Shown here piece by piece: positions 12,191-32,514 of a DNA stretch of 33,758 nt. Origin of the DNA: Candidatus Schekmanbacteria bacterium RIFCSPLOWO2_02_FULL_38_14 (GTDB taxonomy: Bacteria; Schekmanbacteria; GWA2-38-11); NCBI GenBank assembly GCA_001790855.1, contig MGDH01000005.1, positions 1 to 33,758 of the forward strand. Direction: 5' to 3'. Both the position numbers and the translations under genes were made by a program. The notes beneath the pieces are model-generated. The model saw only the letters and a list, made by a program, of their open reading frames with translations. It ran no database searches and had not been told where the DNA came from. Numbering within the stretch: the first letter of the stretch is position 1; every line of letters begins with the position of its first letter.

Positions 12191-14239
12191 ATGAAAACTG
12201 AATATTCTTTAAAAAATAATATTGTAATATCAACCCTGGTTTGCGTGTATTTTGGGATATTAATCAGCATTTTTGATGCAGGAGTAATCCTTGGATATAA
12301 AAGAGGGCTATTTGCTCTTTCATGGACTCCGTTTCTTTATCCCTTTTTCTGGGTTGGATTTCACATAGTGGGTGGAATTCTATTTGGAAGCTTATTCGGA
12401 TTACTGATATTTCTAACATTCCGGATTCCATGGCTTTCCCGCAGCAATGTTTCTCCGGTTTTGCCTCTGATGCTGTGTTCTGTGTTTCTTTTGTTCCTAT
12501 ATTGGAAAGATTGGATTAAGCTGGCTATTAAAGAAAGACAGTTTGCTTCTTCTTGGTTAGTTTTTGAAGGGGTTTCCAAATATATCATTTACCTTTTAAT
12601 CCTTTTGACAATAATGGTGGTTCTTTTTCCCCTCTGGATGCTTTTGTGCTCTTTAAGGGATAAATGCCATGGTATGTGGAAGGTTTTGTTAAAGGCAGGA
12701 GGTGCTTTTGTTTTAATCTATGTTATTTCTTATTTTGGTTTTATCCGCAACAATACCTTTATAATGCCTGACTTCTGGTCATCAAAGGATTCTCCGTTCA
12801 GGAAGGTCAATTCTCAGGAAGTTCCAAACGGAAATTTCAAATATGGCAGTCAAAAGCAGGTAACCAATGTTTTACTGATTGTCATTGATACGCTCAGGGC
12901 AGACCATATGTCCCTTTACGGCTATAAGAGAAATACCACTCCTTTTTTAGAAAAATATGCTAACAAAGGGGTAGTTTTTACCAAGGCTTATACTCAAAAA
13001 ACTTCAACAAGCCCAAGCGTTGCTTCTATTTTAACAGGAACATATCCTCATACACACGGAATTGTCGGCATTCGGGAATATCTTCCTGATTCAGCAGTGA
13101 CAATTGGAGAGGTCCTCAAACGCTACGGTTTTCACACAGCGTCTTTTGTGTCTAATCCAAACCTTTCTGCTGAGTTTAATTTTAACCAGGGTTTTGATAT
13201 TACTGTTGACTGTGCTACAAAAGATGACCTTGCCGGAGCAAATCTTGTTAATAATAAAGTTTTTCCATGGCTTAAGGAACATAGGAGTGATAAGTTTTTT
13301 CTGTATGTTCATTACATAGACCCTCATGCCCCGTATACCTCTCCTGCTCCTTATAATAAAACTTTCATAGATGATAAATACTATGGAGAGTTTAAAAATT
13401 TTAGAGACAAAAATATTTTCATAAGGAAAAGCCCCACAGATATAAGCTATTATGACCCTGATTACTACATTGCCCAGTATGATGGAGAGATTCTTTATAC
13501 TGATACGGAAATAGACAGGTTAATTCAGTATCTTGATAGCCTTGGACTAACAGATAACACTCTTGTGGTGATAACTGCAGACCACGGAGAAAGCTTAGGA
13601 GATGAACAGAAATATTTTTTTGGACATGGCTACTATGGTTACGAGCCAACTGCCCATATACCACTGATTATGATAGCTCCAAAAATTATCCCTGGCGGGA
13701 AGGTGATTAAGCGGATAGTGGAAACCATTGACATTGCTCCTACTGTTCTTTCTTTTTTTGATATTCCTGTGTATAAAGATATGGAAGGAATGAATCTCAT
13801 CCCATATATTGCAGGGACAGAGAAGATAAGCCATCCCCGTGCTTATCTTGAAGCTGACAGTACACGCGATTATTTAACCAATATCTTGATTGACGGAGAT
13901 TATAAGTTAATATGCAATTTAGACTGGCTTCATGATTTTGATTTTTTCAATCCTGTACTCTGTGTGGATTTTAACCGTCGGCTACATCTGTGGAAGAAGT
14001 TGTGGAGGCTTGATCCAAAACTCCGTCCTCGCCAGCGATGGGAATTGTACAATTTAGCCAAAGATCCAGGAGAAAAAATTAATCTTGCAATGAGCCAACC
14101 TCAGATATTTCAGGAATACAAGACAAAACTCTCTGCATGGATGCGGCGCAGGCCTGCGTTTCAGAATTATAAAAAGGACATCAAAACTCTTTCTTCAAAA
14201 ACCTTGAAGAACTTAAAGACATTAGGGTATATTCAGTAA
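12191..14239 (+). CDS. Membrane-anchored sulfatase-like (alkaline phosphatase superfamily) enzyme, Thr-type
   Basis: A 682-residue protein with about five hydrophobic segments in residues 10-185, then an extracytoplasmic catalytic domain of the alkaline-phosphatase/sulfatase superfamily. The metal-site start NVLLIVIDTLRADHMSLYGY (D233, D238) and the C-terminal VVITADHGESLGDEQ with FGHGYYGYEP are clear. The nucleophile motif is T-S-P-S-V-A before SILTGTYPHTHG: at the position where sulfatases have Cys (modified to formylglycine) and CxPxR, it has Thr273, and the Arg is replaced. This favours a Thr-nucleophile phosphotransferase or phosphodiesterase, as in the LtaS or EptA branches, rather than a sulfatase. 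With a membrane anchor, a periplasmic headgroup transfer to lipid or glycan is plausible. Automatic annotation will probably call it 'sulfatase'. Confidence 0.82.
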   Translation: MKTEYSLKNNIVISTLVCVYFGILISIFDAGVILGYKRGLFALSWTPFLYPFFWVGFHIVGGILFGSLFGLLIFLTFRIPWLSRSNVSPVLPLMLCSVFLLFLYWKDWIKLAIKERQFASSWLVFEGVSKYIIYLLILLTIMVVLFPLWMLLCSLRDKCHGMWKVLLKAGGAFVLIYVISYFGFIRNNTFIMPDFWSSKDSPFRKVNSQEVPNGNFKYGSQKQVTNVLLIVIDTLRADHMSLYGYKRNTTPFLEKYANKGVVFTKAYTQKTSTSPSVASILTGTYPHTHGIVGIREYLPDSAVTIGEVLKRYGFHTASFVSNPNLSAEFNFNQGFDITVDCATKDDLAGANLVNNKVFPWLKEHRSDKFFLYVHYIDPHAPYTSPAPYNKTFIDDKYYGEFKNFRDKNIFIRKSPTDISYYDPDYYIAQYDGEILYTDTEIDRLIQYLDSLGLTDNTLVVITADHGESLGDEQKYFFGHGYYGYEPTAHIPLIMIAPKIIPGGKVIKRIVETIDIAPTVLSFFDIPVYKDMEGMNLIPYIAGTEKISHPRAYLEADSTRDYLTNILIDGDYKLICNLDWLHDFDFFNPVLCVDFNRRLHLWKKLWRLDPKLRPRQRWELYNLAKDPGEKINLAMSQPQIFQEYKTKLSAWMRRRPAFQNYKKDIKTLSSKTLKNLKTLGYIQ

Positions 14240-16889: not shown

Positions 16890-18230
16890 ATGAAATATTT
16901 TTTCGCAGCTTTTTTAGTAATATTTTTTTTTAATTTTTTATCCTGCCAGAAAAAAGAAGAGCCGTTGAGTGTAATACTAATTACAATTGATACCCTGAGG
17001 GCAGACCATCTTTCCTGTTACGGTTACAGAAGGAATACATCTCCAAATATAGACAATATTGCTAAAGAAGGAGTGTTTTTTCAGAATGCAGTTGCTTCTT
17101 CGTCATTCACACCTCCTTCAATGGCAACAATTTTTACTTCAAAGTATCCGAGTTCCCATGGTGTAAAGCACGGTGTTTTCAAAAAAAATAAGGTTTTTAA
17201 TCAGGAAGTTCTTTCAGATTCAATTCAGACACTCGCTGAAATATTAAAGGAAAACGGTTATGCTACATATGGGTTTCATACCAATCCGCATCTTTCAAAG
17301 GAATTCGGTTTTGCACAGGGGTTTGATTTTTTCAACCAGTTCACATTCTATGATGCATTGGAATTAAACAGCGAGATACTTCGGAACAAAGACAAAATTA
17401 AATCAGGCGGGAAATATTTTTTGTGGGTTCATTATTTTGACCCCCACTGGCCCTATCTTAAAAGAACTCCATGGATAAAGAAGTATTCTTCATTTAAATC
17501 TGATAAAGAAGATGAGACTGAATATGCAGACCCTCCTGAAAAATTCTCTAATGCAAAAAATTTGAAAAACAACAGAGAACTTCTTTCTTATATTATTGCC
17601 CGCTATGACAGTGAGATAAACTTTGTTGACAGATATGTGGGGGAACTTTTGCAATTTTTTAAACCTGAAAAGAATACTCTTGTAATCATAACGTCTGACC
17701 ACGGGGAGGAATTCTTTGAGCACGATGAGTTTACGCACGGACACCAGCTTTATGAAGAAAGTATAAAAGTCCCGCTTATCATATATGCTCCTTCAAAATT
17801 TCCGGCAGGGGTGAAGATAAGAGAACAGGTTGGTATCATAGATATAATGCCAACCATACTTGATATTCTGAAAATCAAAAGCAGGCAAAAACTTTCAGGC
17901 GAAAGCCTGCTTCCTTTAATTTCCGGCAATAAAAAAGAAGAAAGAATTTTATACAGCGAACTTGCAAGGGGTGGAAAAGATTCTGTGTCTGCAAGATTTA
18001 AAAACTGGAAATATATTTATGATGTAAAAGAGAACAAAGACGAGCTTTATGATTTGAACTCTGACCACGGAGAAAGAGATAATATAGCTTCTGTTAATGA
18101 AATGATTGTAAAAGATTTTCAGTCGAAAGTGAAGGGGCTTCTTTCGTCTTCAGGAGAGATTAAAAGCGAGGAAAAACCTGTTGGCAAGAATGTTGTTGAA
18201 AGCCTCAAATCCCTCGGATATATCAATTGA
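16890..18230 (+). CDS. Sulfatase-like lipoprotein, Thr-type active site
   Basis: A 446-residue alkaline-phosphatase-superfamily enzyme with a signal peptide ending in a lipobox-like NFLSC (C19), so probably a periplasm-facing lipoprotein. The catalytic domain begins VILITIDTLRADHLSCYGY, and LVIITSDHGEEFFEHDEFTHG gives the C-terminal metal ligands. As in the membrane-anchored relative at 12191, the nucleophile motif lacks Cys: SSFTPPSMATIFTSKYPSSHG has Thr74 where sulfatases carry formylglycine-Cys, and Met where CxPxR has Arg. The C-terminal YDLNSDHGERDNIAS resembles the sulfatase tail. No convincing ribosome-binding site precedes the ATG. It likely transfers or hydrolyses a phosphoester or similar group on the glycan; 'sulfatase' should not be taken literally. 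Confidence 0.82.
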   Translation: MKYFFAAFLVIFFFNFLSCQKKEEPLSVILITIDTLRADHLSCYGYRRNTSPNIDNIAKEGVFFQNAVASSSFTPPSMATIFTSKYPSSHGVKHGVFKKNKVFNQEVLSDSIQTLAEILKENGYATYGFHTNPHLSKEFGFAQGFDFFNQFTFYDALELNSEILRNKDKIKSGGKYFLWVHYFDPHWPYLKRTPWIKKYSSFKSDKEDETEYADPPEKFSNAKNLKNNRELLSYIIARYDSEINFVDRYVGELLQFFKPEKNTLVIITSDHGEEFFEHDEFTHGHQLYEESIKVPLIIYAPSKFPAGVKIREQVGIIDIMPTILDILKIKSRQKLSGESLLPLISGNKKEERILYSELARGGKDSVSARFKNWKYIYDVKENKDELYDLNSDHGERDNIASVNEMIVKDFQSKVKGLLSSSGEIKSEEKPVGKNVVESLKSLGYIN

Positions 18231-20136: not shown

Positions 20137-23100
20137 TTAACTCGCGCTTTTATTGAATGGAAAACTGAGAATAAATTCTGTCCCCGCGTTGACCTTGCTT
20201 TTGACCTCAATTTTCCCTCCGTGCTTTTCTATAATTTCATAGATTATTGCAAGACCTAAACCTGTTCCTTCACCTACCTCCTTTGTTGTGAAAAAGGGGT
20301 CAAAGATTTTGTCAATATTCTCTTCAGAGATTCCGCAACCCGTATCAGCTACCTTAGCAATAACGGAGTTGCTTTCCATCCATGTTTCTACTTTTATTAT
20401 TCCTCCCTTTTCTCCAATGGCATGGGAGGAGTTAATAAGGAGGTTTAAAAAGATTTGCTCCAGCTCCCTTCTATTCCCCCAGAGTTTCGGGATATCAGTC
20501 TTTAGCTCCTTATCAACCCTGATATTTTTAATCTCAAGCTGATGGCCTATTATGTCAATGCTGTCTGCAATACATTCATTAAGATCTACCTCTGCCTCTT
20601 CTTTTGGCGTTGACGGCCTTGAGAAGATAAGAAGCTCCTTGATCATTTTCTTGCAGCGCATCCCTCCTTTATAGGCTGTTTCAAGCCAGCGGTTTTTCTT
20701 TACTTCTATTTTCTGAAAATTATTATAGAACTCCTCCATCTTCCGGGTACACTCTGCATGGGGGTTTGTCATAATGCACTCGTCAATAATTTTTTTCATA
20801 TCTATAGACTCAAGCCCTTTTACAAGCTCTAAGTTTGTTACAACACCGCTCAAAGGGTTATTTATCTCATGAGCTATACCTCCTGCAAGCCTTCCAATGG
20901 AAGCCATTTTTTCAGCTTGAATGAGTTGATGCTGAAGCTGTCTTTGTTTTTCCTCTGCTTTCTTTTTTTCAGTTATATCCCTTAGTATAGCAACTACGCC
21001 TGAAAGGTTTCCTTTTTTGTCATTTAAGGCAGCAACCGTCTGCTCAACCGGAAGAGATGAACCGTCTTTTTTTTTCCAGCCCATTTCAACCGGAGGAACT
21101 TTTCCTTTTTCCATAAGCAGGGCAAACATCTCCATCTGGGCGGCACGATGCTCTGGAACCCCGGTTGAGAACTCCATGGTGTTCATTCCTATTAATTCCT
21201 CTCTTGAATATCCGAGCATTTTTAAAAAAGCATTATTTGCCATTGTAAGAAATCCTGTATTATTGGTGACAATTATCCCGTCCACTGATGCCTCAAAGAT
21301 GCTTTCAAGATAATCTCTGGTTTCCTTTATTTCCTGTTCCAATTTCTTTTTTTCAGTTATATCCCTTATTATACCAACTGAGCCTGAAGGGTTTTCCTTT
21401 TTATCTTTCACATAAGCAGCAGACTGCTCAACAAAAAGCTGAGAGCCATCTTTCTTTTTATAAACTATTTCAACCGGAGAGACTTTTCCTTTTTCCATAA
21501 GCAGGGCATACATCTCCCTATTGGTGGCAATATGCTCGGGAATCCCGGTTGAGAACTTCCTGGAGTGCATTCCTATTAATTCCTCTCTTGAATAGCCGAG
21601 CATTTTTAAAAAAGCATTATTTGCCCTTGTAAGGACTCCTTTATTATCGACTACAATTATCCCGTCCACTGATGCCTCAAAAATACTTTCAAGGTAATCC
21701 TTCGTTTCCTTTATTTCCTGTTCCAGAGCCCGTTTCTGTGTAATGTCCTCCCGTGTAATTATTGCACCAACAATCATATTTTTTAAGTCCCTGAGAGGTG
21801 ATATTTTTACTGAATAAATAAACTGTCCTTTCTTGCCTTCAAAGGTTATATTGGAGTGCTCATAGCTTATTCCCTCTGTTAAAGCCTGATCGTAGATTTT
21901 TGAAGAGGCTTCCTTTAGTCTTTCAGGCATCTGATAAAGAATATCCTTGCCTATCTGTTCCTCCCTTTTTAGTTCCACACCCACTTTCCTCATCTGGTTT
22001 ACTATCTCTTCATTCATGGAGGTAATTTTTCTTTCCTTATCTATTACAATAACGCCGATTGGGATATTCCTTACAATATTTTCATTATATTCTTTCAGAT
22101 ACAGGATTTCCTCAGATGCCTTTACTTTCTCTTCCAGCGCTTCTGCTCTTTTCTTGTTGATTCTGATTGCGTAGCCGCTTGAAACAGTTAATACCAGTAT
22201 TATTGAGAAGGTAAGGATAAGGATATAGAAATAGCTTTTTCGTGCAGAAATGGCTACCTTCCCAAAAGGGGAACTGGTAGCTATTACCCAACCAGAAAGT
22301 CCCTGTCTTAAATTAAAACCCGTTGCTGCAAGAAGCTTTGTTGAATGATTTATTTTATTTCTTCCTGTAAATTTATTGGCTGTTATCATTTGTTTTTCCG
22401 GATTAAAACTTTCGTGGCACGAAAAACAGCTCTTGTCCTTGTCAAAAATATTTTTGAAGACCATTTCAGGATGTTCCGGCAGATAAATAAGAGTTCCTTT
22501 CTGGTCCATTACCCATACGGTTCCCTTTTTGCCCTGAGACAGGGGAGTAATATAATTTGTAAAAATATAATCAGAATCTATAAACAGAAGAATACAGCCT
22601 GAAAGTTCTTCACCTGAAGAAAGAGAATTAATGCCGGAAAACAGTTTATAAATCGGGATACCAAAGATTATTTCATTTGCAGGTGTGGGCGATAAAATAT
22701 TTTTTTTGCTTAACTCAGATATATAAAACTGCGGTGGTTTTAAATCTTTGGAAATTTGAAAAGGTTCGGTTTTACTTAAATCCAAATTTAAGAAATTTTT
22801 TCCTGAAGCCTGCCACTTGCAAATTCCGTTCCGGTCAAGAATGAGAATATTTTTTACTCCCTGCTCTTTTAGTGTTTCAAGGGATGTGTAGATTATCTGT
22901 TCAAAGTGTTTTTCTTTGAATCTTTCCTCTCTCAGTTCAGGAACAGAAGCTATCAGACCTGTAATCTGCTCCAGGTGCTGGAAATACCCTTCAATTCCTG
23001 AGGCAGCCTGCCTGGTTAAGACCTGTTGCCTTTCTGTATATTCCTCTGCCAGTCCTTCCATGCTGAGGTTATATATCTGGTATAAAATTATCAGGAAAAA

Positions 23101-23148
23101 TATTATGATGCCTATGGTCATTGCTATCTGGAAAACCATCTTTTTCAT
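20137..23148 (-). CDS. Sensor histidine kinase with periplasmic CxxCH motif and three PAS domains
   Basis: A 1003-residue membrane kinase. TM1 is at 5-26, an extracytoplasmic sensor domain spans about 27-305, and TM2 is at about 307-328. The sensor domain contains SCFSCHES (C241, C244, H245), a c-type heme attachment motif, in the compartment where heme c is ligated. Then come PAS domains at about 355-470, 478-600 and 606-729. The last two are near-duplicates ([32 protein letters not shown]). HisKA has [13 protein letters not shown] (H760), and the ATPase part has N-box [22 protein letters not shown] and GTGLGL. HisKA carries an insertion of about 30 residues with C791 and C800. AGGAG 7 bp before the ATG supports the start. 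No response regulator is adjacent, so it is an orphan. It probably senses redox or a small ligand at the heme. Confidence 0.9.
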
Positions 23149-23237
23149 TTTTTGACTCCTAAAGAATTCTTGACTTTAAAAAATATTGTAGTTAACTCTA
23201 AAGCTCATAGCAAGGAATTTGTTTAGGAGGTTAAATT

Positions 23238-23825
23238 ATGAAAAGGTCTGCAAAAGTAGAAAGAAAGACTAGCGAAACAGATATATCAATTTCATTAAAA
23301 TTAGACGGAGCCGGGGCAAGCAGTATATCCACTACTATTCCTTTCATTGACCATATGCTGTCTCTGATGGCAAGGCACGGACTTTTTGACCTGAAAATTA
23401 AAGCAAAAGGAGACACGGATATAGATTGTCATCACACGGTTGAAGATATCGGAATATGCCTTGGTGAAGCATTTAAAAAGGCACTTGGAGACATGAAAGG
23501 GATAAGCAGGTATGGGAGCCAGAACCTCCCAATGGATGAAACCCTTGTTTCTGCCGCAGTAGATATCAGCGGAAGACCATATCTTGTTTATAATGTTAAA
23601 TTCCCGAGAAAGGGATTAAGAGATTTCGACATAAGCCTATTCAAGGAGTTTTTCCAGGCTTTTTCTTCAACAAGCAGAATCACTTTGCACATAAATTTAG
23701 TCTATGGAAATAATGCTCATCATATTTGCGAAGCAGTTTTTAAAGCCTTCGGAAGGTCTCTCAGGCAGGCTGTTTCAATTGACCCGAGAATCAGGGGAGT
23801 GCTGTCAACAAAAGGGAAAATTTGA
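23238..23825 (+). CDS. hisB: Imidazoleglycerol-phosphate dehydratase
   Basis: Sixth step of histidine synthesis: dehydrates imidazole glycerol phosphate to imidazole acetol phosphate. It is a monofunctional 195-residue enzyme without the phosphatase domain of enteric HisB. Metal-binding motifs are visible in [27 protein letters not shown] and the second half [22 protein letters not shown]. The ATG follows a good AGGAGG (7 bp spacing). It is the first gene of a histidine block transcribed away from the sensor kinase; the 89 bp between them must hold both promoters, but no convincing pair of hexamers is evident. hisH starts on the base after its stop. Confidence 0.96.
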
Positions 23826-24467
23826 ATGATTGCAATTGTTGATTATGGAATGGGCAATTTAAGGAGTGTTCAGAAAGCCTTTGAAAAATTAAAATTTGAT
23901 GCTCTGATAACAAGAGAGCAGAAAGAAATAGAAAACGCAAAAGCTATTGTTCTTCCCGGTGTTGGGGCATTCAAGGACTGCATGGATAATCTTGAAAATC
24001 TCAAGCTCGTTGCGCCAATTGTTGATGGCATAAAAAAGGGAAAGCCATTTCTTGGAATATGCCTTGGATTGCAGCTTCTATTTTCTGAGAGCGAGGAGTT
24101 TGGCTTGCACAGGGGGCTTGATATAATAAAAGGAAGGGTCAAGAGGTTCCCACCTGATTTATCTGACCTTGAAGGGGATAGAGGAAAGCTTAAAATTCCT
24201 CACATGGGCTGGAACAGGATAAAAATCATAAAGAAAGCACCAATTTATGAAGGGATAGATGATGAGTCTTACTTTTATTTTGTTCACTCATATTATGTAA
24301 TTCCTGAGGATAAAGGATTTGCAGCCACTGAAACGTCGTATGGGATAAACTTTGTCTCGAGCATATGGAAGGATAATATTTTTGCCACCCAGTTCCACCC
24401 TGAAAAAAGCCAGAAGGCGGGGCTAAAGGTTCTGGAGAATTTCGGGAGGCTGGTTGAAAAAAGTTAA
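23826..24467 (+). CDS. hisH: Imidazole glycerol phosphate synthase, glutaminase subunit
   Basis: Hydrolyses glutamine and channels ammonia to HisF for imidazole glycerol phosphate formation. The class I amidotransferase nucleophile elbow GICLGLQLLF gives C79; the histidine and glutamate partners are in ATQFHPEKSQ (H191, E193). Other conserved segments are IAIVDYGMGNLRSVQKA, VLPGVGAFKDCM and PHMGWNRIK. 213 residues is slightly longer than typical, with a short expansion (FPPDLSDLEGDRGKLK) before PHMGW. It starts directly after the hisB stop. Its partner HisF is encoded 1.1 kb downstream, after hisA and two repeat-bearing gaps. Confidence 0.95.
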   Translation: MIAIVDYGMGNLRSVQKAFEKLKFDALITREQKEIENAKAIVLPGVGAFKDCMDNLENLKLVAPIVDGIKKGKPFLGICLGLQLLFSESEEFGLHRGLDIIKGRVKRFPPDLSDLEGDRGKLKIPHMGWNRIKIIKKAPIYEGIDDESYFYFVHSYYVIPEDKGFAATETSYGINFVSSIWKDNIFATQFHPEKSQKAGLKVLENFGRLVEKS

Positions 24468-28103: not shown

Positions 28104-29864
28104 ATGAAAAAAATAAACATATTTCATGAATTTGTCCTCATCAATTTCTTTACTATTTTAGTCATAGTAGTGGTTTTTTCTTATTCCATCTCCAATCTCC
28201 TCATCTCCAACATGTTAAAAAGGGAAGGAAGGATTACCACAGATATTGTAAGGGTTATAACAAGGGTTGATTTAAATGAAGAAAAATTCAAGAAGGCTTT
28301 AAGGCTCAAAAAGATAGAAGTATTTCAAGTCTTCTTTGAGAGGCTCAAGAGCATACCAGAATTTATAAGGCTGAAAGTCTATGATGAAGGGGGAACAATT
28401 GTCTGGTCGGATGAGGCAAGGGCCATAGGGAAGAATTTTAAAGATAATAAGGAGCTTAAAAGCTCCCTTGCGGGAAATATTGAAGTCAAAATGGGGCTTA
28501 TAAAAAAAGAGCATATATATGAAATAGAAAAGGTTCCTGAAAGAAGGCTCCTTGAAATCTATGTCCCGCTTCTATCAGAGGATAAAAAAAGAATCTATTC
28601 GGTAATGGAGGTTTATAAGTACCCTGTCTCTCTATTTAAAAGCATAGATAGTGCTAAGAGATTTATCTGGCTTCTTGCTGCCTCTGTTGGCCTGGTCCTC
28701 TTTTTATCTCTCTCCTGGTTATTCAGGAAAGCTATGAAAAAGGAGATCAAATTAAATGAGGAGCTTTTGGAATCCAAAAAATTCATTGAGGATATAATCG
28801 AGAATATGAATACAGGAATATTTGTGATAGACAGGGATCTAAAGATTTTATCCTGGAACAAGGCAATGGAGAATATTACCAAAAAAGAGTTGCCTAAGGA
28901 AACGGTTATTGGCAAAAAGTTCCTTGAGGTATTTCCCATATTGGAGACCATAGGATTTGAAAAAAAGTTAAAAGATATTTTTTCTACAAAGAAGCCTCTA
29001 ATCCTCTATGATCAGGAATATCCAGTATCAGGGGGAAGTGAGGTCTTGAGTTTAAATATCAGGGTAATTCCTTTGCTCGGAAGCAATGTGGAGGTATCTA
29101 ATCTAATTATTACCTTTACGGATTTATCAGAAATGAAGAAGCTAAGGGAACAGTTGATCCAGACTGAGAAACTAAGCACCATGGGCTCTATGTATGCTGG
29201 GCTTACCCATGAGATAAATAACCCTCTAGGAATCATAGTATCAAAGGTGAGGATGATATTATCTCATAATAAGGTAAAAAAATTATCAGAGGATGTGATT
29301 GATGATTTAGAGATAATAAAAAAACATTCTATGAGGATTACAGAAATTATCAGAAACCTTTTGGCCTTTGCAAGAAGGTCGTCCTTTAAATCTATCCCTC
29401 TTGATATAAATGAGGTCTTGCTTGATGCTATCCAGTTAGCGGAAAAGCCTTTTGCTAAGATGAATATAAAAATAGAGAAGGAATTAAAAAGGGATTTGCC
29501 CTCTATCTTTGCTGATTCAAACCAGCTTCAGCAGGTATTTTTAAATCTCTTTACCAATGCGAGAGATGCTATGTTAGAGGGAGGTATAATAAAGGTCAAA
29601 ACCTGTCTGAAAGAAAATGACGCCTCATTAGTAGTAGTTCTTATTTCAGACACCGGAGCAGGTATTTCTCAAGAAAATATTAAGAAAATCTGGGAGCCCT
29701 TTTTTACCACTAAAGATACTGGTAAAGGAACAGGCTTAGGCCTTTCTGTGAGCTATGGGATCATAAAGGGATTTGGTGGAGATATAGAAGTGGAAAGCAA
29801 GCTCGGGCAAGGGACTACATTTAAGATTGTTCTTCCCTCAAACCAAGACGGTTCAACGGCTTAA
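28104..29864 (+). CDS. Membrane sensor histidine kinase with extracytoplasmic sensor and PAS domain
   Basis: A 586-residue NtrB/ZraS-type kinase. TM1 is at about 12-34, the extracytoplasmic sensor at 35-185, and TM2 at 186-206. A PAS domain (IIENMNTGIFVIDRDLKILS) spans about 225-345. HisKA has GLTHEINNPLGII (H369); the ATPase part has VFLNLFTNARDA, SDTGAGIS, PFFTTKDTGKGTGLGL and GTTFKIVLP. All catalytic boxes are intact. It is the first gene of a three-gene unit with a second kinase and a sigma-54 activator, its likely partner. The sensor contains VYDEGGTIVWSDEARAIGKN, a Cache-like segment seen in ZraS/HydH-type kinases, so the stimulus is probably a periplasmic solute or stress; the ligand is not evident. 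Confidence 0.9.
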   Translation: MKKINIFHEFVLINFFTILVIVVVFSYSISNLLISNMLKREGRITTDIVRVITRVDLNEEKFKKALRLKKIEVFQVFFERLKSIPEFIRLKVYDEGGTIVWSDEARAIGKNFKDNKELKSSLAGNIEVKMGLIKKEHIYEIEKVPERRLLEIYVPLLSEDKKRIYSVMEVYKYPVSLFKSIDSAKRFIWLLAASVGLVLFLSLSWLFRKAMKKEIKLNEELLESKKFIEDIIENMNTGIFVIDRDLKILSWNKAMENITKKELPKETVIGKKFLEVFPILETIGFEKKLKDIFSTKKPLILYDQEYPVSGGSEVLSLNIRVIPLLGSNVEVSNLIITFTDLSEMKKLREQLIQTEKLSTMGSMYAGLTHEINNPLGIIVSKVRMILSHNKVKKLSEDVIDDLEIIKKHSMRITEIIRNLLAFARRSSFKSIPLDINEVLLDAIQLAEKPFAKMNIKIEKELKRDLPSIFADSNQLQQVFLNLFTNARDAMLEGGIIKVKTCLKENDASLVVVLISDTGAGISQENIKKIWEPFFTTKDTGKGTGLGLSVSYGIIKGFGGDIEVESKLGQGTTFKIVLPSNQDGSTA

Positions 29865-29887
29865 GCCTCAAGGATAATTTAAGATTT

Positions 29888-31138
29888 ATGCTAAAAAAAA
29901 TTAAATCATCTTTTAGTGAAGTTGACATATTTTTTCTTCACTTGAGGCTTATTACTATTCTGGGTGGGGCTATATGGATTGCGGTTGTTTCCCTTGATGC
30001 TGGAAAAAGCCAGCTCATAAAGCAGATATTTATAGCCTTTGTCCTCTACAGCGCAATCCTATATTCTTTTATCATAGAATTTCCCTCCCTTATCAGGAAA
30101 TTTTATATTATAGCCATTACGCTGGATATGTTCTTTATCTATGGTTTAGTGAGATATATTGGAGAACTAAAGGGGAATTACTTTCTTGCCTTCTATCTCT
30201 TAGTTGCTATTGCCTCTTTTTATTTTGGTTTAAAAACAGGATTGCTATTTACCTTTATCTCTTCATCTCTTTATATTTATTGCTATATTATCTTCCAAGG
30301 ACATTTATTTTTATCTTGGCAGGATTTAGGATTGAGACTCATTTTTCTTCTTTTAATTGCCGTATCAATGGGACTTTTATCAGAAAACGAGAAGAAGGAT
30401 AAGGAAAATATTAAAAGACTAAACAAGGAGCTATCAGACAAAAATTCTGTGCTTGAGCAGATCTACTCTTATTTATCCATAGGAAAATTGGCGTCAGGAG
30501 TGGCGCACAGCATTAACAATCCTTTAGGAATAATTGCTGGCAAATCAGAAAACCTCCTCAAGGAGGCAAAAAAGGATCAGCTATTAGAAAAATTTATAAA
30601 GGATCTTGATGCCATAAATAAAAATACCTATCAGATTTCAGAAGTTACAAAAAGCCTCCTCTCTCTTTCAGCACAAGATAACTTAGAGCTTAAACCCGTT
30701 AACCTAAACGATATTATCGAAAGCACCCTTATCCTTTTTGAAAATCAATTTGAGCAAAAAGGGATAAAGCTTAAAAAAAACTTATCAAAAAATCTAAAAG
30801 ATATAATGGGATATAGCCAAGGGATAAAAGAGCTCTTGATAAACCTCTTAAATAATGCGATAGACGCCACTATAGCAGGAGGGAATATAGAGGTATCAAC
30901 GGATATTAGAGATGGTTTCCATGTTATTTTAAAAGTAGCTGATGACGGAGCAGGCATACCAAAAGAAAATATAGAGAGAATTTATGATCCCTTTTTCACT
31001 ACAAAAAGAAATGAACGTGGAATAGGACTTGGGCTTACCACCTGTCTCAGGCTTATCAAAAGGCATAACGGCTTAATTGAGGTAAACAGCAAAGAAGGAG
31101 AGGGAACCACTTTTACGGTCTCTTTTCCAATTTATTAG
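29888..31138 (+). CDS. Polytopic-membrane histidine kinase with HSINNP H-box
   Basis: A 416-residue kinase with an N-terminal block of about five to six hydrophobic segments (residues 20-165) and almost no extracytoplasmic loops, then a short coiled segment and the kinase core. The H-box is GVAHSINNPLGII: H207 is present but the next residue is Ser instead of the Glu that normally aids phosphotransfer. The ATPase motifs ELLINLLNNAIDA, DDGAGIP, PFFTTK and GIGLGLTT look intact. It therefore may have altered kinase/phosphatase balance, or still work with a weaker base. It sits 23 bp after the first kinase and 17 bp before the activator, so both sensors probably feed one regulator. The signal is probably membrane-borne, such as lipid or quinone state, but this is inference. 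Confidence 0.87.
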   Translation: MLKKIKSSFSEVDIFFLHLRLITILGGAIWIAVVSLDAGKSQLIKQIFIAFVLYSAILYSFIIEFPSLIRKFYIIAITLDMFFIYGLVRYIGELKGNYFLAFYLLVAIASFYFGLKTGLLFTFISSSLYIYCYIIFQGHLFLSWQDLGLRLIFLLLIAVSMGLLSENEKKDKENIKRLNKELSDKNSVLEQIYSYLSIGKLASGVAHSINNPLGIIAGKSENLLKEAKKDQLLEKFIKDLDAINKNTYQISEVTKSLLSLSAQDNLELKPVNLNDIIESTLILFENQFEQKGIKLKKNLSKNLKDIMGYSQGIKELLINLLNNAIDATIAGGNIEVSTDIRDGFHVILKVADDGAGIPKENIERIYDPFFTTKRNERGIGLGLTTCLRLIKRHNGLIEVNSKEGEGTTFTVSFPIY

Positions 31139-31155
31139 GCTTTCTAAAAATTATT

Positions 31156-32514
31156 ATGCAGGATAACAAATTAAAAGTCTTAATTGTCGAGGATGAGCCT
31201 GATATGGCTCAAATATATGCCTCTGTTTTAAAAGAAGGAGGCTATGAGGCTATCATCTCAACAGATAGCAAATCCTCCTTGGAGATTTTTCATAAAGAAA
31301 GGCCTGCTGTGGTGCTTACTGACCTTAAAATGCCTGATATAGATGGGATGGAGATTTTAAAGAGGATAAGGGCAATTGATATAAACGTTCCTGTAATAAT
31401 GATAACAGGCTTTGCAACGATTGAATCTGCTGTAGAGGCAATGAAGATTGGAGCTAATGATTTTCTTGCCAAACCCTTCCCTCATGATGAGCTTATCTTA
31501 AAAATTAAGAAGGCCATAGATCTAACCAAAATTTTAGAGGAAAATATATATCTTCGCCAAAGAATAGCAAGTGAGCACAGGTTTGATAGGATAATTGGGC
31601 AAAGCAATGCAATAAAAGAGGTTTTAAATATCCTTACAAAGGTCTATGAATCCGACAGCAGGGTTTTAATAACAGGGGAAAGCGGCACAGGTAAAGAGGT
31701 GGTGGCAAGGTCCATTCATTACAACGGCCTGAGGAGAAATAATTATTTTTTCCCAGTAAACTGCGCGGCCCTTTCTGAAAATCTTTTAGAGAGCGAACTC
31801 TTTGGCCATGAGAAGGGAGCCTTCACAGGTGCAATTTCCACAAAGAAAGGGCTTTTTGAGATCACTGAAGGTGGAACTCTATTTTTAGATGAGATTGGAG
31901 ATACAACCTTTTCTTTTCAGGCAAAGCTTCTAAGGGTTATTCAGGAAAATGAATTTAAAAGGGTTGGTGGAGACAGGATTTTAAAGAGCGATGTCAGGGT
32001 CATTGCCTCTTCTAATAAGGATTTGAAAAAAACTATGCTTGATGGAAGATTTAGAGAAGACCTCTTCTACCGTTTAAATGTTATTCATATTCATCTTCTC
32101 CCGCTAAGGGAGAGGAAGGAGGATATCCCCCTTTTAGTTGAACATCTTTTAGAAAAACATTGTTTCAAAATGAACAAAAAGAAAAAAAATATTACTGATG
32201 AAGCAATGGAGTTTTTAAAGAAGTATGACTGGCCTGGAAATATAAGAGAGCTTGAAAATGTCTTAGAGAGGGCATTGATTATGACCTCTGAAGATTCTAT
32301 AACCATAAGGGAGCTTGCAGGTATTTCTGAAAGGGATGCAAAGGAAAAGATTAAAAAACCCGGCTCCCTGGAAGCCCTTGAAAAAGAATTAATAGAGAAA
32401 ACCCTCCTTGAATGCAATTTTAATAAAACCCTTACAGCAGAGCGCCTTGGCATTGGAAGAAGAACGCTCTATGAAAAGGCAGCTCGCTTTGGAATTTCCT
32501 TAGACAGTAAGTGA
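31156..32514 (+). CDS. Sigma-54-dependent response regulator, NtrC family
   Basis: A 452-residue enhancer-binding protein. Receiver domain about 5-120 with phospho-acceptor D56 ([13 protein letters not shown]) and K106; AAA+ domain about 143-375 with Walker A GESGTGKE (174-181), the sigma-54 contact GAFTGA (221-226), Walker [10 protein letters not shown] and the arginine-finger region [16 protein letters not shown] Fis-type helix-turn-helix follows at about 415-446 ([20 protein letters not shown]). All sigma-54-activation features are complete. It is co-transcribed with two histidine kinases. Directly downstream lie a palindrome and a strong -24/-12 promoter, its probable target. Confidence 0.95.

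Follow-up and report, generated by a model that had tools for sequence, protein, structure and literature searches.

What does an orphan histidine kinase sense when its periplasmic domain carries the CxxCH signature of c-type heme, and has such a sensor been described before? The question is raised by a kinase gene of Candidatus Schekmanbacteria bacterium RIFCSPLOWO2_02_FULL_38_14, encoded in a stretch of 33,758 nucleotides (contig MGDH01000005.1, positions 1 to 33,758, assembly GCA_001790855.1) that was analysed whole and is hereafter called the window. Judging from the translation and its relatives, the kinase very probably carries a covalent heme in the membrane-proximal half of its outer sensing domain, and its likely role is to sense redox state or a gas (NO, for example), either of which could be the physiological signal.

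The kinase and its predicted heme site

The first-pass annotation had picked out CFSCH at residues 241-245 as a c-type heme motif in the periplasmic domain of an orphan histidine kinase, and had suggested that the protein may sense redox state or gas. The motif and its setting are supported, and sensing of redox state or gas is the most likely function. The frame and the topology were borne out, the motif lying between TM1 and TM2 and within the interval 22400-22440 originally indicated, and the loop that carries it is predicted on the outer face of the membrane from the N-terminal MKK and the RINKKR that follows TM2. Pfam recovers the three PAS domains that had been proposed, together with HisKA and HATPase_c (Table 1), and the gene is an orphan as described, with a TPR protein and hisB as its flanks and neither a regulator nor a cytochrome gene adjacent. 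Beyond these earlier observations, the sensor proves to be a double Cache domain (dCache_1, PF02743, scoring 46.6 bits against a curated Pfam cut-off of 45), and the kinase is one of three such in its genome.

The ectodomain contains four Cys and five His in all. A chance motif was ruled out by the composition of the protein (~0.001 CxxCH expected per protein) and by the occurrence of CFSCH as the sole CxxCH among the long open frames of the window; a broken gene was ruled out by the open frame of 1003 aa and by an orthologue at 86% identity. An Rfam scan of the whole window gave no match. Elsewhere in the window, two sulfatase-family genes (12191-14239 and 16890-18230) flank an ABC transporter gene, with a TPR protein next.

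Table 1. Coordinates in the window of the kinase gene and of the parts of its product.
Feature	Position	Strand	Layout or basis
Orphan sensor histidine kinase, 1003 aa	20137..23148	(-)	TM1 - dCache with CxxCH - TM2 - three PAS - HisKA - HATPase_c
TM1, about residues 7-27	23068..23130	(-)	Hydrophobicity of translation
Double Cache sensor domain in the periplasm, residues ~30-305	22234..23061	(-)	dCache_1 match 35-230
Met229, candidate sixth heme ligand, heme-type-specific	22462..22464	(-)	Alignment, 43/45 vs 0/36
CFSCH, residues 241-245	22414..22428	(-)	C241 and C244 predicted to attach heme c, H245 predicted as proximal ligand
F248 to E251; F248 and E251 heme-type-specific	22396..22407	(-)	Alignment
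TM2, about residues 306-329	22162..22233	(-)	Hydrophobicity of translation
Three cytoplasmic PAS domains, about residues 356-470, 485-599 and 609-734	20947..22083	(-)	Pfam
Kinase core: HisKA with AHEINNP (His760) and HATPase_c 892-999	20152..20895	(-)	Pfam

Conservation of CxxCH and a heme-type signature

The closest named relative of the locus, and the only match in a contig search with the window sequence, is Candidatus Schekmanbacteria GWA2_38_11, whose sensor is 86% identical. A search with the window sensor gave nine sensors, the window's included, across four genomes of the phylum. Conservation of CxxCH in orthologues, on which the heme reading had been made to depend beforehand, was found throughout, the motif standing at one common column in all nine. 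Two of these sensors belong to further kinases of the own genome that share the domain and the motif at 33% and 31% identity to the window sensor, and in the alignment the phylum homologues other than the 86% orthologue are only 21-30% identical to it. Further columns invariant in the nine are Q41, G218 and M229; most invariant columns fall in the proximal Cache module and the first helix, the distal module being more variable. The four orthologues (window, G001, G002 and G003) are all beside, and divergent from, hisB and hisH. All four genomes of the phylum retain this divergent layout (20137-24467 in the window), although two of the kinase sensors are only ~30% identical to the window's.

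Two wider surveys used profiles that contain the motif columns and so favour motif-bearing matches: in the first (386 genomes, nearly all from other phyla), CxxCH was present in 12 of 12 distinct sensors better than 1e-45 and in the sensor of none scoring 6e-33 or weaker, and in the second, at the loci examined, it was present in 36 of 36 better than 1e-54 and in none of 16 weaker than 1e-43. The second survey covered a phylum (that of G263) which we would guess to be Nitrospirota, and found a match at 1e-15 or better in 119 of 396 genomes, a count that joins heme-type and non-heme homologues and includes some genomes with non-heme relatives only. Such a distribution does not support the earlier view that c-heme sensor domains are rare. 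One heme-dCache gene (L023, in G004) has stops inside and lacks much of the first Cache module, with CxxCH present, and is either an assembly error or a pseudogene.

A joint alignment of 45 heme-type and 36 non-heme sensors defines what distinguishes the heme type. C241, C244 and H245 are invariant in all 45 heme-type sensors, which follows by construction from a group defined by the motif; the conservation of Met229 does not. Position 229 is Met in 43 of the 45 (the two exceptions belong to one genus) vs none of the 36 non-heme sensors, which mostly have Phe or Leu there. The same specificity to the heme type is seen for F248 and E251, and Q41 is common to both groups. The alignment shows no other His, Cys or Met that combines conservation with restriction to the heme type, which makes Met229 the leading candidate for sixth heme ligand, a role it likely fills to judge from this pattern. 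An AlphaFold model of the sensor built from two sequences (window and L016) had a mean pLDDT of 31, too low to show a pocket or the geometry of Met229.

The signature M-x11-CxxCH-xx-F-xx-E occupies the variable segment that follows strand 2 of module 2, where the closest non-heme dCache_1 relatives are without CxxCH. Between G218 and W287 the heme type has no extra length (median 69, vs 76 in non-heme sensors), and the motif therefore replaces a variable segment and is not an insertion. In a tree built without the motif columns, the heme label needs 6 changes vs 26.7 when shuffled, and is thus clustered; a single origin of the heme type is neither shown nor rejected (p-AU 0.35), the deep branches being weak.

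Could the motif hold something other than heme? CxxC pairs are capable of binding metal or of forming a redox-active disulfide, and the CxxCH of the window kinase might accordingly bind zinc or iron, or form such a disulfide. We regard this as most improbable: the His of the motif, which heme c requires, is invariant in the heme-type group, and a Met, which would be unusual for zinc, is the single further candidate ligand that is conserved and family-specific. The maturation genes also speak for heme. The genome, which measures 2.68 Mb at 99% completeness and encodes multiheme cytochromes, has the cytochrome c maturation genes that the first-pass annotation had proposed to look for, as ResB proteins at three places with a CcsA-type protein adjoining each; by these genes it is predicted to encode System II (ResB/CcsA) maturation, which normally acts on a periplasmic CxxCH.

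Relation to known heme sensors

The published heme-bearing Cache sensors form the sCache_heme family (PF11845, DUF3365/Tll0287), which covers GSU0582, GSU0935 and Tll0287 and has been described as the first Cache domain with a covalent cofactor, for which a cytochrome fragment inserted into a single Cache has been proposed (PMC12889525, a 2026 preprint). With ~5,000-20,000 members (PMC12889525), this family too lends no support to the supposed rarity of c-heme sensor domains. Like the window sensor, its members combine a periplasmic Cache with a CxxCH heme c motif, and they often feed kinases, chemoreceptors and cyclases; a signalling member binds NO tightly and has the properties of an NO sensor, whereas stand-alone proteins behave as redox proteins (PMC12889525). 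In GSU0582 and GSU0935, Met60 ligates the reduced heme, departs on oxidation, when water takes its place, and is displaced by NO or CO, both of which are bound (PMC8396549). DcrA of Desulfovibrio vulgaris resembles the window sensor, as proposed here, in using a periplasmic c-type heme for redox or oxygen (PMC8396549), but it is a chemoreceptor and not a kinase.

The fold of the window family places it elsewhere. The dCache_1 profile matches 11 of 12 family members (Pfam, E up to 1), and a PDB profile search matched chemoreceptor and kinase sensor domains, with no heme sensor among the matches; those of dCache_1 kinases and chemoreceptors (PF02743; e.g., 3LIB and 4WY9) share the double Cache family and layout of the window sensor by sequence profile. 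Membership of PF11845 was ruled out by the lack of a match in the 12 members (E up to 1) or anywhere in the own genome and by the weakness of the profile alignment with DUF3365 (22-37% probability, mainly around the motif).

That the window sensor could still be a divergent sCache_heme rather than a separate family is suggested by the Cache fold and CxxCH of both and by that same alignment, which at its best (37%) pairs the two motifs, yet we consider it very unlikely. Profile comparison with non-heme dCache relatives reaches 100% probability (E 1e-56) over both modules, and the position of the motif differs. In sCache_heme, a single Cache, CxxCH lies between beta3 and beta4 (PMC12889525), before the last core strand, and in 26 DUF3365 sequences it comes after a strand-like '..YMKPV' stretch and before one last strand-like stretch; in the window family it lies in module 2 of a double Cache, before the last three strand-like stretches (strands judged from sequence and homologues). 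We conclude from these comparisons that the window sensor family is of a dCache_heme type, separated from sCache_heme by motif position. A new architecture had been suggested for this kinase; its novelty lies in the placing of the motif within module 2 of a double Cache, and not in the PAS content or the orphan state.

Gene neighbourhoods and proposed signalling

Possible targets are suggested by the surroundings of the kinase and its relatives. The window holds at 28104-32514 two more histidine kinases and then an NtrC-type sigma-54 regulator (31156-32514), which lies ~8 kb from the orphan kinase, past the two others, and is a possible partner of it. Of the paralogues, one (L008) adjoins a single-domain receiver, and the gene of the other (L009) overlaps with that of a sigma-54 response regulator, after which comes a gene for an 11-CxxCH cytochrome c/b561 protein. 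G003 shows the same set of kinase, sigma-54 regulator and cytochrome, plus two multiheme genes upstream, and in both loci a sigma-54-like site (TTGGCATAGATTATGC and CTGGCATAAAAACTGC) is found in the gap before the cytochrome, against a background of ~0.05 such sites per kb and strand in these loci. Outside the phylum, a sigma-54 activator gene adjoins the kinase in 14 of 15 neighbourhoods; 13 of these activators have a receiver domain (assigned by Pfam or by close similarity to a Pfam-checked one) and one has PAS instead.

Two side observations concern the same kind of locus. In L047 (2117-2779) and L052 (2203-2648), a small Cys-containing ORF (~60 aa) lies between the sigma-54 regulator and a multiheme cytochrome, with a sigma-54-like site ahead. 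In L134 (3005-4801, minus strand) and L139 (1003-2802, plus strand), HAMP histidine kinases near the heme-dCache kinase have a sensor that carries CxxCH and a second CxxxCH (ACxGCH ... CYxxxCHxH); Pfam gave no match to the sensor region of L139. From its motifs, this looks like a diheme sensor, perhaps akin to Gsu0591/Gsu0599 (named in PMC3831638).

The explanation that we judge probable as a whole is a double Cache kinase with heme c, Met229 as a ligand, and a redox or gas (e.g., NO) signal relayed via PAS, and its steps, from heme attachment and Met ligation to the signal, its path and its target, are those that we infer below. System II would attach one heme c to the membrane-proximal Cache module, at C241 and C244, with H245 as the proximal iron ligand and Met229, which opens the variable stretch beyond the second strand, as the likely sixth, distal one. 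A redox change of the heme, or a gas such as NO displacing Met229, would alter the ligation; this change would move the membrane-proximal module together with the segment that runs into TM2, and the movement would in turn alter the kinase via the three PAS domains. As an orphan, the window copy would have to work through a regulator whose gene lies elsewhere.

Small molecules are the usual ligands of dCache domains, and heme-dCache relatives adjoin multiheme cytochromes. It is conceivable that heme is present, but that the main cue is a small-molecule ligand in the distal Cache module, with the heme structural or passing electrons, so that the kinase would read respiratory electron flow and not gas; the redox behaviour of the stand-alone sCache_heme proteins (PMC12889525) would agree with such a role. 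Against it stands the greater variability of the distal module noted above, the invariant columns being concentrated on the membrane-proximal side, and we hold it to be rather unlikely. Detection of redox state or gas by the heme itself is the reading that we prefer.

By its sequence, the window sensor belongs to a family that recurs among bacteria and is distinct from the heme-Cache sensors known from the open-licence literature. We see an even chance that heme c was gained at least twice by Cache sensors, once in the single Cache of DUF3365 and separately in that module of a double Cache which lies nearest the membrane, and that a two-module sensor could join heme and small-molecule signals and drive sigma-54 control of respiratory cytochromes in many bacteria. 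A distinct double-Cache heme family, if true, would mean that the route of cytochrome into Cache has been used more than once. Many kinases now labelled simply 'dCache' could then receive an annotation as sensors of redox state or gas, and in bacteria that have been little studied there would be a testable link between heme sensing and the control of multiheme cytochromes by sigma-54.
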